Part shown: positions 23,694-32,047 of the stretch, one piece after another
Position numbering within the stretch: position 1 is the first letter of the stretch
How the letters are laid out: each line of letters starts with the position of its first letter
From: Eremomyces bilateralis CBS 781.70
Lineage: Eukaryota; Ascomycota; Dothideomycetes; Eremomycetales; Eremomycetaceae
Direction: 5' to 3'
Length of the DNA: 64,000 nt
Assembly: GCF_010015585.1 (NCBI RefSeq)
Contig: NW_022985081.1
Coordinates: forward strand, 295,995-359,994
Program-made: the position numbers and the translations under genes
The notes under the pieces: generated by a model
The model's database searches: none
What the model saw: the letters and a program-made list of their open reading frames with translations, nothing else
What the model was told of the DNA's origin: nothing

Positions 23694-25681
23694 ATGAAAA
23701 TAAGCTTGCTGAGACGGCAAGTCTTTGCAAACACTCTACTTCGATGCTTCCCTTCGTCTTTGAATTGCATCATACACCGGAGCGAACTTGCTCGGGCCAA
23801 ACATCGACCATCCCGTCCAACTGGTTCGCAATGGCGACGGTACACCTCTATCCGCGGCGCTGCCGCTGCCCATCAGGAGACTGTTCGCCTGCCAGAAGGC
23901 GCAGAGATAGGTGAAGAGACTATATTTGCTTTATCAACAGCTCCCGGTCCCGCCGCCATCGCAATCGTTCGTATATCCGGACCACTCTGCGAGCACGTAT
24001 GTGTCGACCCTCTCTCAATAGTATCAATCCATTGTCCTGACCTATAACTAGATCTACAACCATCTCTGTCCAGACAAACCACTCCTGAAGCCCCGCCATG
24101 CCACGGTTCGAACCCTCTATTCTCCTCACATCCCTCCCTCCCCCGACACCATCCTCGACACCTCCGCCCTCCTCCTCTACTTCCCCTCCCCCAACACCTT
24201 CACCGGCCAAGACCTCCTAGAACTCCACATCCACGGCGGTCCTGCCACCGTGCGCGCCGTCCTCAGCGCCATCCCAACGTGCTCCGGCCCCCTCTCCCCT
24301 ACCCATCCCACCAACTACCCACGCCGCAAAATCCGTCCCGCCGACCCCGGCGAATTCACCCGCCTCGCTTTCCACGCCGACCGCCTCTCCCTCCCTCAAA
24401 TCGAGTCCCTCTCCGCCACCCTCTCCGCGTCCACCGAGCGCGCCCGGCGCGCGGCGATCCGGGGCTCCGGTGCGTCGCTCACCGCGCAGTACGAGGCGTG
24501 GCGGAAGGATCTGATCGGCGCGATGGGGATGTGCGAGGCGCTGATCGACTTCAGTGAGGACCAGGCGTTTGAGGAAGGGCCGTCGGATCTGGTGGCGCGG
24601 TGTGTGGAGTTGGTGGAGGATTTGAGGGGGAAGGTGACGGCGGTGAAGGAGAATGCGACGCGGGGCGAGCTGATGAGGGAGGGGATTAGTGTGGCGTTGT
24701 TGGGGAAGCCGAATGCGGGGAAGAGTAGTTTGCTCAATCGGATTGTGGGGCGGGAGGCGGCGATTGTGAGTAGTGAGGAGGGGACGACGAGGGATGTGGT
24801 GGAGGTGAGTGTGGATTTGGAGGGGTGGTTGGTTAGGGTCGGAGATATGGCCGGGTTGAGGAAAGGGGAGGCTTCCAATAGTGGAGGCTCGGGGGTTGGG
24901 GTCGTTGAAAGGGAAGGTATCAGAAGAGCAAAGGAACGGGCATTGGCTTCGGATCTCGTCATTGTCATGGCAAGCATCGAGGATGTGGGCGATATTACAG
25001 ATATACCCAAGCTGGTGTTGGATCCTGAAGTGGTCGAAACTACTCGGGAGGCCCTTAACAAGGGGATCGAGGTGGTTGTTGCTGTCAACAAAGTTGACAA
25101 ACTCTGCAAATCCTTCCCGGGAGATAACCTGGAGCAGTACCTCGAGGGTTTCCGGACTGGAATACGTTCTGTCCTCCCCACCGTCAGCTCCGAGCGGATT
25201 CTTTTCATCTCCTGCAAAGGCGAACTGCCATCCGCTACTTCTACCACTCAGGACACCATCCAAGTCCTACTCAGGACCTTGTCGACTGTCTTCACCGAAA
25301 TGACCACACCCCTCGACTCCAATGCCACAGGCGCGTGGAACGACGCTAGGCCGGTGGATAAATCCATTTGGCAAGAATCATTGGGTGCCACGACGAGGCA
25401 GAAGCTACTCCTCGATGAATGCGACCTTCATCTTCAAGATTTTCTAGATAGTGCCGATGGTGAGACGACCGGTGAAGCGGATATCGTCATGGCAGCGGAA
25501 CATCTTCGTTCCGCGGCGGAGTGTTTTGCACGAATCACTGGACGTGGCAGTTCCGGTGATGTTGAGGAGATTTTGGGTGTGGTGTTCGAAAAGTAAGTGG
25601 CCATTTCTTTATCTCCATGTCCTTACTCAACTGGATTTGATTCAAATTGACTGTGAGCAAAGGTTCTGCGTAGGCAAATAA
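23694..25681 (+). CDS. mss1: Mss1/MnmE, mitochondrial tRNA wobble-uridine modification GTPase
   Basis: With Mto1 it installs the C5 modification (taurinomethyl or carboxymethylaminomethyl) on the wobble U34 of mitochondrial tRNAs. Three exons (23694-23996, 24052-25592, 25663-25681) give 620 residues. The last exon is only 19 nt and encodes FCVGK, the obligatory C-terminal CxGK catalytic motif; the apparent stop at 25,594 lies inside the second intron (GTAAGT..AAAG). Visible parts: mitochondrial presequence (1-60), TrmE N-terminal folate-binding domain (GQDLLELHIHGG, PGEFTRLAF), helical domain, G1 GKPNAGKSS (about residue 319), G2 GTTRDVVEV, G3 DMAGLR (usually DTAG) and G4 NKVD (about 447). 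The Met in G3 is unusual. It converges on the micro-ORF transcript. Confidence 0.95.
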
Positions 25682-25699
25682 CGTTCTCGCAGAAACATA

Positions 25700-26286
25700 G
25701 ACTGTGGAAATCGGAGAAAAAGATGCGTTTCAATGAATAATACCGACATGTAAGAAATAAACGATGCAAACGCTAGAAATATACTGGGTATGTCTACTCC
25801 CCTCTCATCCCAACCATGTAAATGCAGCAAAATCCCATGCCCGAAACGCCATCCGATGCAAATGCTCTTTTTTTCCCATGCCCGTACCTTTTCCCAATGC
25901 TGACCCAAACCGTCGCTATGCAAATGAACGCTCAAACCGCTAAACTCAGGAATACAGAGCTCGAACATGCCCTACATGCCGCCAAATCTCAAAAAAATGC
26001 AGTCCAGAACTCGGAGAACTGGTCGGAAGAGTTGCGTCGTGCTCATGCTAATGTCCAATCGCCATGAAATCTGCAATGCCGCCGTCCCTGGAGCCGCGCC
26101 AGTTGCCGGAGCGTATCGATCATCAAGAGTGGCGATGTCGACGTCGAAACAGCCCGCTGTGTTCTCCGAACTAGCGGAGGCATAATTGGGGCCTCCACCA
26201 GGGAGGACACATCAAAAAAGAGGAAGGGAAGGGTGTCGAATCCATTCGATGGTGAGGGAGGTGAAGGGTGCCGCCCATGGCCAGGC
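25700..26286 (-). other. Putative 3' part of the micro-ORF transcript
   Basis: Downstream of the third micro-ORF the minus strand regains ATGs at normal frequency. The first (26,278) opens a 35-codon frame starting MGGTLHLPHH, 8 nt after the third stop. Other frames are short and show no domain. GT-rich and A-rich runs look like untranslated sequence. I could not fix a poly(A) site; the Mss1 stop at 25,681 on the other strand sets a likely limit. Confidence 0.3.
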
Positions 26287-26310
26287 TCAGTTGTAGCCAC
26301 CGCGACCCAT
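26287..26310 (-). CDS. Micro-ORF 3, heptapeptide MGRGGYN
   Basis: ATG GGT CGC GGT GGC TAC AAC TGA. The third and last copy in the direction of transcription. Start context is ACG-ATG-G (A at -3, G at +4), and the stop is TGA. It encodes exactly the same seven residues as the two upstream copies but with different Gly and Arg codons. The 83-nt spacer before it contains no ATG. Too short to have a domain; a product of six residues would remain after loss of Met. Confidence 0.75.
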   Translation of the reverse strand: MGRGGYN

Positions 26311-26393
26311 CGTGGAGATTTCGTCGGTCTTCGAAGGTAGAAAAGAGATTCTGCCAAGAACAGCGTCGAGACCGATGTCGAGCGAGAAGCTAT

Positions 26394-26417
26394 CTAGTTG
26401 TAGCCTCCACGTCCCAT
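26394..26417 (-). CDS. Micro-ORF 2, heptapeptide MGRGGYN
   Basis: ATG GGA CGT GGA GGC TAC AAC TAG. Start context ACC-ATG-G, stop TAG. Same peptide as copies 1 and 3. Relative to copy 1 it differs at the Arg codon (two bases), two Gly third positions and the stop; every change is silent. The 84-nt spacer from copy 1 contains no ATG. Confidence 0.75.
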   Translation of the reverse strand: MGRGGYN

Positions 26418-26501
26418 GGTGAATGTGGTCTATTTCGCGATTGATATGGAGGGAATCAGGAACCAAATGGTGAGCTCGCTGGTCGGTGTCCGCAAAGATA
26501 T

Positions 26502-26525
26502 TTAGTTGTATCCGCCTCTTCCCAT
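26502..26525 (-). CDS. Micro-ORF 1, heptapeptide MGRGGYN
   Basis: ATG GGA AGA GGC GGA TAC AAC TAA. The first ATG on the minus strand after about 400 nt without one (next upstream ATG at 26,929). Start context ACC-ATG-G, stop TAA. It is therefore the first start codon a scanning ribosome would meet on a transcript starting anywhere between about 26,925 and 26,526. I know of no named family with this peptide; I could not search. Confidence 0.75.
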   Translation of the reverse strand: MGRGGYN

Positions 26526-26943
26526 GGTTAAGTTGGCCCGATATGGATAGACTTGGTATGAGATGGAAATATTGAGACTCTTGACTTGTAGTAGGAAAGT
26601 AGGAAAGGACTTCAACTCTTGAAAATGGAAAGAAATGACCTTAAGAACAAGGAGAGCTTGGACTTCACTGATCGATATATGTGAACAGATAATTCGCGGA
26701 TGACTGGCTGTCGATTCAATGGCGCACCCTGGTAGTCAAGGGTCGGATGTTGGATTCTGATAGAGGTCGATGCAGTCAGGTCGGGTGGTTGTAACGCTTG
26801 GATGAACCGTTGAAGGGCGAAGTAAACGATTGGTTGATGGAAGTGGATTAAGGAAGAAGACGGATTGTATAGATTGGATTGATGTCTGCAGAGGGGATGA
26901 GCCGAGAGGGCCTTTCAAGCGCAAATCATGAGGTCTTATAATG
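26526..26943 (-). promoter_or_regulatory. Promoter and ATG-free leader of the micro-ORF transcript
   Basis: On the minus strand a TATA-like CATTATAAG lies at about 26,943-26,935. It is followed by a long stretch rich in C, T and A (26,890-26,526) of the kind seen at strongly expressed fungal promoters and leaders. There is no ATG from 26,926 down to 26,526, about 400 nt. No clear intron is present. The transcription start is not determinable by eye; around 26,880 is plausible. Confidence 0.5.
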
Positions 26944-29900
26944 CCACCGATGATCGATGCCTCCAACGGACGACATGGATCTGCAAGCCGCAAGGTGAAG
27001 GTCTGAGGGTCAAGGAAGCATTGTTCGGGTGGACTCAAGTGGAGGCACTCACGCAGGGATTGTGAGATGCTTAGCATCAGCCTCCCAGCCAGCCCAAACC
27101 AGCTCGATGCAACCTCGCAGGCACTGATGGAGATCAGAATTCTGAGATGATCGCTGAGCGTCCGGATGACTCCTCATGACCATGAACGATGGCCATGCAG
27201 CTCGTGCCAACGACCCAATGCGATGAGGTATCTTGGTCCGCACGTCCTGCATCTGATTCTGTACATTCACCGATGGCCGAACCATTGGGCAACCCGATTT
27301 AGTTTCCGCATCAACATGAACTGTCCGAGGGCGAAGGGATGTTGGAAAGGTCGAATCACAGCATCGGCCGTTTTGTGGCGCCCGACCAAATACCTTTTTT
27401 GGGAGGGAGGCTATGGCAAGTCATCATTGCTGCACTGCGATCGGTTTCCACTGTCCACGCCCGCCCAGGCCCGGACCACGTCCGAGCTTCGCTAAGGACA
27501 GAAATGAGAAACGTCTGACTTCAGCACGAAGTTCTACGCAATTTCTTCGTGGGGATTCGGCTTCCGATTCGCCGTTGGAGGTACAGTTTCAGGAGCTCAT
27601 AGACATGGTGCCACGAGCCGTCTGTCCGGATCGTGGTACAATTGGCTTGATGGCTCGAGCCGTCTGATGAACCCCTTGATGAAACAAGAGAACGGGTGTG
27701 GATGTGCTAGGGACATAGTGTGGCTATGAGGGGAATAACGTCCAATAGCGTTCGTAAAGAGCCTTCACATCTCTAGTGGACTGGTGATGAACCTTCCTGT
27801 TGATGACTGCCTGGAGTCACGGCACGTACATATTGTTCGCCAAGACACCTCTGTTCGTGATATCCAGTGACCTGCCAGACAGAAAATGCGCCATGCTCAC
27901 TTGCGTGAGGTATGAATGTATCCGACTTGGCGTGCGCGGTGAAGCAGACATAGTCATTCGGCATCTCCTTTGAGGACTGAGGCTTGCATAGAGCGCGCAA
28001 ATTCTTCGTTCTTGGTATCAAGGATTCTGCACCTCAAGAAGGTACCAATTACCATAGCATGAACCATGGCGTTGCGCCGTTGGAAAAACAGGAATAATGC
28101 TTGTGACTTCTGACTTGGTGTCAAGATCGACGCCCCGGGCTGGACCTCCCTCCTATCGATCTTGTTGGTCAAGCCACAACGTTCAGCCCTGAACCGGAAC
28201 ACCACGTTGTCCGCTGTCAGCCCTACCGCTACCCCAGTAGACACCCCCAGTAGGCTGCGACAGAGCACCTGCAAAATGGTGCAGTGATCTCCGATCTCAA
28301 GGCGGGTTTGATACTGTATCAAGCCGCAAGAGCAAATCAGCAAAATTAAATTGACCCTGGAGCCACACAATCAACAACGAACCACACCGCCGGCGCACCC
28401 GCTGCGAGAAGGATCCAACGGAGCCACCATCATAGGATGATTTTGGTGTCATCCACGCCTACAGCCGATGTTGCAATTCCGATTCTGAAGAGTTGTATTG
28501 AAAAATTCCTCCGTGAGGATTGCGTTGCGGCTCATGGACGATCGGTCGTGCGATCGACGATGGTGGCGTACTGCTGTCGCATTTTTCACAACAGATCCGA
28601 ATGAGAAAGACCCTAGGACGGGCCGGGCAAGGTAGAATAGAAATTTGAATCGTTCTATTCTCGCCAACATCCTTCCGATCCAATGGGACACGGATGTTGG
28701 TGTAGATTCAAAAAGGTAGAAACCCTCTGGCCGCAGCATATTCGTGATACTCCAACGTATCGATCCCACAAAGCCCCCACCGAATTAAGGCTCTCCTATT
28801 GAGGAAGTTCAGTCCCGTTCCCTGATTGGTTCTAAAGGATCAACTAGGCTCGGTTTCAGCCCTGGAGTCTAAAGTTGTTCATCCCAGGCCCGGATTTGGA
28901 TGCACCACTCATATCTTTATGCGACATTTGTACGACTTAATTGGTTAAATACAAAGAAATGGCCACATCGTAAGCCGCCTTTCGATGATTAGAATCGCCG
29001 GCAGTCATTGATATGAGCCCCAACTCTTCCGTGCTGTGGCGCAAAGCCGAGCACGACCAGGTCGACCAGATCGACCAGAAATAGAACGAAAGCGATATCA
29101 AAGCGGAATATATGACCATTAATAAATAAAAATTGAACACGATTACGATCCTTTCGATGGCATATGCAGCAACGGTTGCTTCATTCGAGAAGTCAACTCG
29201 ATAGTGGCAGACGAACTGGTCGACACAGAAATGCGAGCCCATGTCTGGTGTCTAGATACGGTACATTGCGTGTCGCTAATTCATGCAAGAATATATTGTA
29301 TAAGCCCAAAGTAGTGGGCAATGTCTCCGATCTGGATATGGTGACCCAATTGATACTTCCAGGGTACAGCAATGTCTCCGATCCGGGTATGATAGCCCAA
29401 TTGAGACATGCAGTGTCAGCATTCAGCAACCACGTATTACTCCATCGTTCGATGTGGCTTGCCAGTCCCCAAGACCGCTTCGACATCTCTAGTCCTGACA
29501 TAATCAAGAGAACATGATATACGTCAGACTCTTGACCTCTGGTCGTTCCCCGAATATTTCACGAAGGATCTTGCGCGACGATAACATGGTCCTGAAATTG
29601 ATGTCACGTTGTTCTGGTTGGAATGCCGGGACATTTCCCGGAGCCCAAAGTCTAGACCATCGGGGCATTCCCCAAAAATAGCAGCACCGGGAGCCCCTGT
29701 TTAGACTTTTTGAGCCGCCTATTAGCGCCGTCTGTCTCGGCGAATAGCAGCCATCGGGTTCGAATTTCGATATAGCGAGTCAGCGACATCACTAATTACC
29801 CTGCCCATCCGGGCCATCCAGCAGCCCATCCGTCGCCTATCTAGTTCTATTTCCAGCCACTCAGAACTTTGATGGTAACGTCAGAATTCCGCACGCCTGC

Positions 29901-30581
29901 CGAGTCTCCCAGCCTGGAAGAGCGGGGCCGGGGGGGAACCAGGCGGCTGGGAGAGTGCTACAGTAAGCCTCATCGTCGGCTTAGTAACGAGGAAGAAGTC
30001 GATGACAATGTGCTACTTAGAAATCACTGTCCATGCTGTGAAGGGATGCTTACTGTTCGGCACACATTCACATCCCACTGCAACTGTGGCTTGGAGAAGA
30101 GCAGAAAAGACGTCATAGGGAAGTAAACCAGGCAGGGCCCTTCGCGAAGATCACGCCCATTCAAGCCCGTCAGCACAGTAATCTTGCAGCAATAGACATC
30201 TATATTCACAACCGTTGTCTATTGTGATTTCATCAAGGAGAATTTTCCTTCCAATCCTGCGCATGCGACATCCAATATGGCTGTGCAATGCAATCCTTCG
30301 TCGCCGTGCCGACGGTGATACGGACTCGTCTGACAAATGGTTCATGCCCATGACATTTCGTAACCGTGTCGCGCACCGGACTCCGTGACTTCAACTGTCT
30401 GTGGCAGTGACATTCCAGGCCTGAACTCTCTGAACATTGCCTGCTCAGAAGACCATTTTTGATTCGTGAATAGACCGTTCGATTCGGGCGCTTAATGATT
30501 GGGTCTGCAGGTCTCTTTGGGCACTCCAGCAACCCATGACCATCCCGACTTTCAGGCACCGATATACGCCGATCGACATGC
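26944..30581. other. Gene-poor region, 3.6 kb
   Basis: No supported gene. The longest frames (27,954-28,370 minus; 28,449-28,769 minus; 29,164-29,517 plus; 29,869-30,126 plus) have no recognisable domain and no splice continuation that I could find. The last has a Cys cluster (HCPCCEGM, SHCNCGLEK) that may be chance. A short tandem duplication at 29,319-29,405 is listed separately. It probably includes upstream sequence of the micro-ORF gene and the 3' flank of hus1. Confidence 0.4.
29319..29405. repeat. Tandem duplication, two copies, 51-bp period
   Basis: CAATGTCTCCGAT starts at 29,319 and again at 29,370. About 36 bp of each unit match with few differences (GGATATGGTGACCCAATTGA against GGGTATGATAGCCCAATTGA). 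The period is a multiple of three and the plus frame stays open, but no gene is supported around it. Confidence 0.7.
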
Positions 30582-32047
30582 TCAGATGCTGTACGAACTG
30601 ATATAATACTGATCGGGAGTTGAGCCATGTTCGAGTCGCCGCAGTCGATCAAGGATAGCACTCACCGTCAACACCGAATCCTCCCGACCCTCATCATCCG
30701 GCATATAGACGTAAAGAATCAGCGCCGACTCGTGACAGAAGCCTACCCGCATTAGCACGCATGTCCACCCTATCATCCACGCCACCTACAAGCAATCACC
30801 CTCCCCCCAAGCCTCCCCACACTCATCACCTTCCCCCAATCCCGCCCATCAATCCTCACCGTCGCCCACCCCTCCTCCCTCCTCCCCAACGGATCCCCTA
30901 ATCCCCTCATCCGCGTACTCGGATGGCCCTCCACCCCGCCCTCCCCGCCCTCCACCTCCCCCGGATCCAGCTCCGGATTCACCAACCCTGTCCACACGCT
31001 CTTGATATCGATCGCGTCCGCCGCCACCCGCAGCCGCAGGCACCCATGCATGTTCGCCGCGAGCTCCAGCCGCGGCCCGGGACCCGTGAACGCTGGTCCC
31101 GTCCCCGCCGTCGAAGGGAGCAGCGTCCCGCCGGCGCCGCTGGTCGTGGTGGCACGCGTGCTCAGCGCGAGCTTGGTGAAGCGGTCGCTGGCGGCTTTGA
31201 GCTGCGCCAGGGGAGGGAGCAGGATGTGCACGTCGGGATCGCGGCAGCGCGGCTCGTGAAGGCCTTCGACGGTGGCTTGGCTGAGGATGCGGATGGGGAC
31301 GTCTTGGGTAATGACGGTTTCGCGGTCGGAGGTGCCCCATTGTAGGGGGACGGGGACGCCACCGAAGTCGTCGGTATCGCCGACAGGGGCATTGCCCGCG
31401 AGGGATGCTGAAGGACCCTGATTGTTGTGTGGGATGGGCGGGGGTACGGGGTTTGGTTGTCCGGGCTGGGTTTGTAGGTGGTCCGCAGTATCGGTGAAGG
31501 AGTGGAGGGGCCCGGGGGTGAAGTTGGCTGCGGTGACAGTGGTGCGATGGATGGTAATGGAGAGGATCGGACGGCCGTCTTTCTTCGTGAGACGAATGGA
31601 GGCCGAATGGGCCTGGAGAGCGGACTTCAGGGCGCGCTGTAACGATCCAAGGGGAACTTCGAGGTTGATGGTGTTATCCGCATTGGACTGGATGGAGTAC
31701 TCATGGCCGAAGATGGTGTCCTGTTGTCGGAGATCAGACGGCATATAGAAGGGGTGGGATATCGGAATGACGTACAATTGCGAGAACCCTGGCTTGATGG
31801 TAAGTAACAGGCCATAATACGGTATCGGTCATGGTGGAACTTACGCCCAAACCTGCGTGCCCTGCTCTGGCATCACCGTGAATCGAGCATGCTCCTCATC
31901 GAGGCGGACCCAGGCGATGGGTCCTATCGAGGCCAACGATGCGACGAACTCTGTTCACGCCATGTTTTAGATACGATTTGCGTGGTGATGGTCAAACTGC
32001 TTACTATTGAAAGTCGTGATATTCTGGATTTGCGCTTTGAAGCGCAT
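30582..32047 (-). CDS. hus1: Hus1, subunit of the 9-1-1 DNA-damage checkpoint clamp
   Basis: A PCNA-like clamp subunit loaded at damaged DNA with Rad9 and Rad1. Six exons: 32047-32005, 31950-31845, 31788-31776, 31720-30790, 30742-30666 and 30608-30582, giving 398 residues; introns are 54, 56, 55, 47 and 57 nt, all GT..AG and phase-consistent. The N-terminus reads MRFKAQIQNITTFNKFVASL. Exon 3 is 13 nt and is needed to read VWAVLAIDTIFGHEYSIQS. The core NTINLEVPLGSLQRALKSA follows. The two small final exons give VIACFCHESALILYVYMPDD and VLTYYISSYSI, the expected C-terminal strands. A Pro/Gly-rich insert (about residues 145-185) and another near 340 are longer than in yeast. Divergent from the MFS gene. 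Confidence 0.93.

Follow-up and report, generated by a model that had tools for sequence, protein, structure and literature searches.

Three seven-codon open reading frames for one and the same peptide in a fungal genome: a candidate tricistronic micropeptide gene

Short-ORF systems related in design

Polycistronic micropeptide genes with a repeated peptide are, to our knowledge, known only from animals, and the closest described design is that of tarsal-less, polished rice or mille-pattes, which is found in insects and also in crustaceans. In the accessible part of one account, the Pri peptides are 11–32 amino acids long, are encoded by four smORFs on a 1.5-kb mRNA, share the motif LDPTGQY, and bind to Ubr3, whose targets they change (PMC11475943). 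We analysed a 64,000-nucleotide stretch of the Eremomyces bilateralis CBS 781.70 genome (hereafter the window, i.e. the whole stretch), which contains three separate, complete minus-strand ORFs that each encode exactly the heptapeptide MGRGGYN. The locus resembles tarsal-less/pri in that a single presumed mRNA has several tiny ORFs, which encode one repeated short motif, here in three identical versions. It differs in that its products are identical, only seven amino acids long, unrelated in sequence and fungal, and in that it has no known link to Ubr3 or Svb. The LDPTGQY core, as given in the part of the account cited above, is absent from MGRGGYN, and the locus is therefore not a member of the tarsal-less/pri family. 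The first-pass annotation had likened the design to that of tarsal-less/polished rice, and this likeness holds for the separate ORFs and the shared peptide, the sequences being unrelated.

Arrest-peptide uORFs offer a second comparison. The peptide MAGDIS, from the AdoMetDC leader, acts in cis by halting the ribosome at termination; another uORF product with peptide-dependent arrest is the fungal arginine attenuator peptide. The present locus is like these in that very short ORFs, with differences between copies that point to selection on the amino-acid sequence, follow a leader-like stretch; it is unlike them in having three identical copies and no convincing main ORF downstream. Fungal alpha-pheromone precursors also provide several copies of one short peptide per gene, but there proteases cut a single long, secreted precursor that contains the repeated units, whereas here every copy begins at an ATG and ends at a stop of its own, the third being in another frame. 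As short fungal ORFs that annotation missed, the micro-ORFs are also like the conserved fungal sORFs of a genomic survey; the accessible part of that survey, which names MAGDIS as a six-residue uORF product, gives 11 amino acids as the length of the shortest sORF (PMC7394265), so that a seven-amino-acid ORF lies below the range reported there.

The three micro-ORFs and their silent differences

Micro-ORF 1 (26502..26525; ATGGGAAGAGGCGGATACAACTAA), micro-ORF 2 (26394..26417; ATGGGACGTGGAGGCTACAACTAG) and micro-ORF 3 (26287..26310; ATGGGTCGCGGTGGCTACAACTGA) all lie on the minus strand, all translate as MGRGGYN, and were each found in the minus-strand sequence, in the list of ATG ORFs and with a degenerate pattern. 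Each ends in a different stop codon (TAA, TAG and TGA), the start contexts are ACC-ATG-G, ACC-ATG-G and ACG-ATG-G, and the starts are 108 and 107 nt apart; the minus-strand sequence bore out the first-pass annotation in its coordinates, codons, stops and contexts, and a recount returned the same spacing. Micro-ORFs 1 and 2 share a frame and micro-ORF 3 is in a different one; read-through therefore cannot join all three. No degenerate further copy with up to three mismatches was found near the locus, and an ATG at 26278, considered as an extra copy, was rejected as it opens an unrelated 35-aa frame.

Among the 1330 ATG ORFs of 5–40 amino acids in the window (666 plus and 664 minus, nested starts counted and strands examined apart), MGRGGYN is the sole peptide that occurs more than once, and it is again the only repeated peptide in the window when both strands are pooled and ORFs of 5–60 amino acids are considered. 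The base composition of the window predicts 2e-6 copies of MGRGGYN-stop over its two strands, and a rough formula gives ~7e-15 expected identical heptapeptide triples within 250 nt. None of 100 Markov-2 random windows contained a peptide repeated within 500 nt, nor one with three copies, and the degenerate pattern returned exactly the three micro-ORFs from the window and nothing from 100 dinucleotide shuffles. An origin of the repeat by chance, to which we give practically no credence, is refuted statistically for this window by the expected counts, the uniqueness of the repeat and the shuffle scan: the three-fold repeat is not chance.

At the nucleotide level the copies are 19/24, 18/24 and 19/24 identical in pairwise comparison. 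Seven of the 24 columns vary (6, 7, 9, 12, 15, 23 and 24), and every change is synonymous or exchanges one stop for another, with arginine encoded as AGA, CGT and CGC, which bears out the earlier statement that all differences between the copies are silent. In a simulation that scattered the same numbers of variable columns randomly over a star tree, peptide and stop were retained in all three copies in only 1 of 2,000,000 trials. The earlier proposal of selection on the encoded peptide thus draws strong support from the silent-only divergence and from the repeat being unique, and weak support from the lack of ATGs in leader and spacers described below, and the comparison of copies argues strongly that within this genome MGRGGYN has been selected at the amino-acid level.

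This pattern also bears on the idea that a DNA- or RNA-binding element is repeated here and reads as an ORF by accident. Such an element would suit the three copies, their regular spacing and the long stretch without recognised genes, but we consider it highly improbable given that variation is restricted to synonymous positions, the three arginine codons included, that an ATG and a stop are kept in every copy, and that there is no excess RNA structure. A 321-nt stretch folded with a z score of +1.14 (86 of 100 shuffles folded at least as well), the whole window gave no match to Rfam at gathering scores, and a tRNA search of the window was empty. Ordinary folding and the lack of an Rfam match make a structured RNA unlikely, and conserved RNA structure as a candidate is not supported by these results.

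The DNA around the copies is far less alike. Placed in register, the 80-nt flanks match at 23–26 of 80 positions; of six gapped local flank alignments, five do no better than chance (11–68% of 300 shuffles equally good), and the one downstream of copies 1 and 2 is marginal (4% of 300 shuffles). No word common to both spacers exceeds 6 nt. The claim that flanks and spacers are not alignable accordingly stands for most comparisons, the exception being the marginal likeness beside copies 1 and 2. In the bases immediately adjacent to these two copies, 7/10 agree upstream and 7/10 downstream (5/10 and 1/10, respectively, in pairs with copy 3), for which reason copies 1 and 2 may retain a trace of shared ancestry.

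Alignable units including the spacers, as a recent tandem DNA duplication would give, were not found, apart from the slight likeness beside copies 1 and 2. Where the first-pass annotation had argued against a recent duplication, the flanks agree; an old, diverged duplication is nevertheless compatible with the data and would imply selection equally. In such a history, one micro-ORF would have been duplicated in tandem long ago, its neutral flanks losing their likeness while selection preserved the peptide. The near-equal spacing (108 vs 107 nt) and the likeness beside copies 1 and 2 (7/10 bases on each side, and the one alignment at 4%) fit this origin; the other five flank alignments at chance do not, nor does the output of Tandem Repeats Finder, whose single report for 25600–27300 is a 2-copy 8-nt repeat at 26590–26607, and on balance we regard it as rather improbable. 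It concerns only where the copies came from, and is compatible with a tricistronic gene. With diverged flanks and ORFs that differ only silently, the peptide has been kept where most of the surrounding DNA has not, and this holds whether the copies arose separately or by old duplication.

Putative leader, downstream region and neighbouring genes

Upstream of micro-ORF 1 is a putative 5′ leader (26526..26926, minus strand), presumably transcribed, which contains no ATG and is 61% C+T, with a TATAA-like motif at 26940 just upstream of it. Spacer 1 (26418..26501, minus strand, 84 nt) and spacer 2 (26311..26393, minus strand, 83 nt) are also free of ATGs. Leader and spacers together thus contain 0 minus-strand ATGs vs 5.0 expected (Poisson P 0.007, a value that is biased because the leader was delimited at its far end by the next upstream ATG), while the whole 640 nt including the micro-ORFs contain 3 vs 6.6 expected (P 0.11). 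Of the 1152 gaps between minus-strand ATGs in the window, this one of 404 nt ranks fourth in length. Upstream of 26929 there are further minus-strand ATGs, including that of a 113-aa frame (27077–26736) with a negative codon score and no Pfam match, so that if transcription began upstream of 26929 other ATGs would precede the micro-ORFs. All three micro-ORF starts have A at −3, compared with 24% of the 2346 window ATGs, and three of the five larger ATG genes compared share this base. Codon scores of the micro-ORFs are neutral (−0.06 to 0.08), seven codons saying little.

On the other side lies mss1 (MnmE/MSS1), whose plus-strand ORF at 24250–25596 matches MnmE_helical (6e-25) and MMR_HSR1 (4e-17) in Pfam. 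Read by eye, this ORF enters a GTAAGT site, and within 25591–25681 the gene apparently has a small last exon. An ORF ends there in FCVGK-stop (25664–25681), which, judging by the C-terminus of MnmE, we take to be the last exon of mss1. With mss1 on the plus strand and ending at 25681, the micro-ORFs therefore converge on it. The next recognised minus-strand gene upstream of the micro-ORFs is hus1 (Hus1, 30773–31777, minus strand; Pfam 4e-54), and besides MSS1 and Hus1 a Mif2/CENP-C gene was also recognised by Pfam in the window. Such gene content, together with the apparent mss1 intron, points to a filamentous fungus. No protein-coding gene was recognised in the ~5 kb between mss1 and hus1 (25700–30770), which contain the micro-ORFs at their mss1 end; regulatory DNA or further short genes may occupy the rest of this interval.

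When trained without mss1 and hus1, a hexamer score stays below zero in 17/17 300-nt tiles between 25700 and 30799 (range −0.54 to −0.02), and the best frame of every tile contains one stop or more, although the score separates poorly (−0.10 inside mss1, −0.29 over the mss1 end and −0.03 inside hus1, compared with −0.02 for the intergenic tile 28100–28399). With this modest power, the negative, stop-bearing tiles offer no larger protein that would explain the micro-ORFs. Four frames from the mss1–hus1 interval had no Pfam match at E 0.01; this search took in the 113-aa frame and, of the ORFs downstream of the micro-ORFs, one of 108 aa and one of 46 aa, the latter within a 104-aa frame. A larger host protein carrying the micro-ORFs, seen by neither Pfam, codon score nor tile score, was set aside.

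The putative 3′ region (25682..26286, minus strand) reaches the end of the convergent mss1, and its longest minus-strand ATG ORFs are 35, 46, 24 and 108 aa long, the last running into mss1. The codon scores of these four are −0.29 to −0.08, compared with 0.21 (mss1) and 0.16 (hus1) for two genes that themselves belonged to the training set; two plus-strand ORFs of 81 and 72 aa, at 25822–26185, score 0.04 and 0.02. It is here that the main rival to a stand-alone gene meets its difficulty. If the micro-ORFs were three uORFs whose product MGRGGYN arrested terminating ribosomes in cis, tuning translation of a downstream main ORF or mRNA stability, silent-only divergence would be predicted equally, and a six-residue precedent exists in MAGDIS (named in the accessible part of PMC7394265). 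From 26286 to 25681, however, there is no convincing main ORF, the candidates being the four short minus-strand ORFs with the low codon scores just given, the 108-aa ORF and the 104-aa frame are without a Pfam match, and intron signals from 27000 to 25650 are few (three 5′-splice-like and one branch-point-like). A short novel protein or unseen splicing may yet provide a main ORF downstream of the micro-ORFs, but the lack of a convincing one weighs against arrest uORFs, which we judge unlikely.

A candidate repeated-peptide gene

We favour, as fairly probable on the sequence evidence, a stand-alone minus-strand gene with a seven-codon ORF present three times in its mRNA and a peptide that would act in trans, the anatomy of the locus making a polycistronic mRNA a sensible supposition. 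A scanning ribosome would pass the ATG-free leader and translate the first MGRGGYN, and scanning would go on across the 84-nt and 83-nt spacers to allow reinitiation at copies 2 and 3, so that a single mRNA could yield up to three identical peptides. A seven-residue peptide is complete before it could emerge from the ribosome, and removal of Met before Gly by methionine aminopeptidase is probable, which would leave GRGGYN. By analogy with the Pri peptides and Ubr3, GRGGYN might then act in trans on a larger protein, as its ligand or modifier, and the identity of the copies suggests that copy number serves dose. To the fuller proposal, that this fungal gene makes nothing but three identical heptapeptides, each with its own ORF, and is an independently evolved tarsal-less-like tricistronic gene in which reinitiation would multiply the dose of a regulator of six or seven residues that acts in trans, we incline by a small degree.

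If true, repeated-peptide polycistronic micropeptide genes would exist in fungi too, in the barest form of seven codons, three times, and gene finders with a length floor would overlook a class of genes. The locus would also provide an easily edited system for reinitiation and peptide action, and would make the lower size limit of a genetically encoded regulator directly testable. Silent-only repeats inside one genome are, moreover, a search signature that needs no relatives.

The first-pass annotation knew of no described fungal counterpart, and our literature search agrees: the string MGRGGYN is absent from the open-access papers searched, and neither an MGRGGYN peptide nor a fungal counterpart is described among the matches listed (open-access titles and abstract starts, without preprints and most subscription papers). 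The novelty of a fungal repeated-heptapeptide locus is, for this reason, likely but unproven.

Elsewhere, the degenerate pattern, which is loose in that its MGN codon admits Ser too and its TRR admits TGG, gave three matches in viral contigs and four in prokaryote genomes, one per fetched stretch. These encode MGRGGYN-stop in 2/7 (L002, L004), MGSGGYN-stop in 4/7 (L001, L003, L006, L007) and MGRGGYN followed by Trp in 1/7 (L005). The seven fetched stretches contain no second copy with up to two mismatches, and the viral contigs contain neither two copies 75–104 nt apart nor a relative of the mss1 protein. Most simply, the seven outside matches would be chance, without visible relation to the locus.

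The string GRGGYN occurs in four open-access papers; in the accessible part of one of them, PMC8140498, these residues sit inside the RGG-rich PY-NLS listed for yeast Hrp1, which as a lead we treated as coincidence. From this likeness, possibly coincidental, RGG-protein receptors or arginine methyltransferases are conceivable partners of the peptide.
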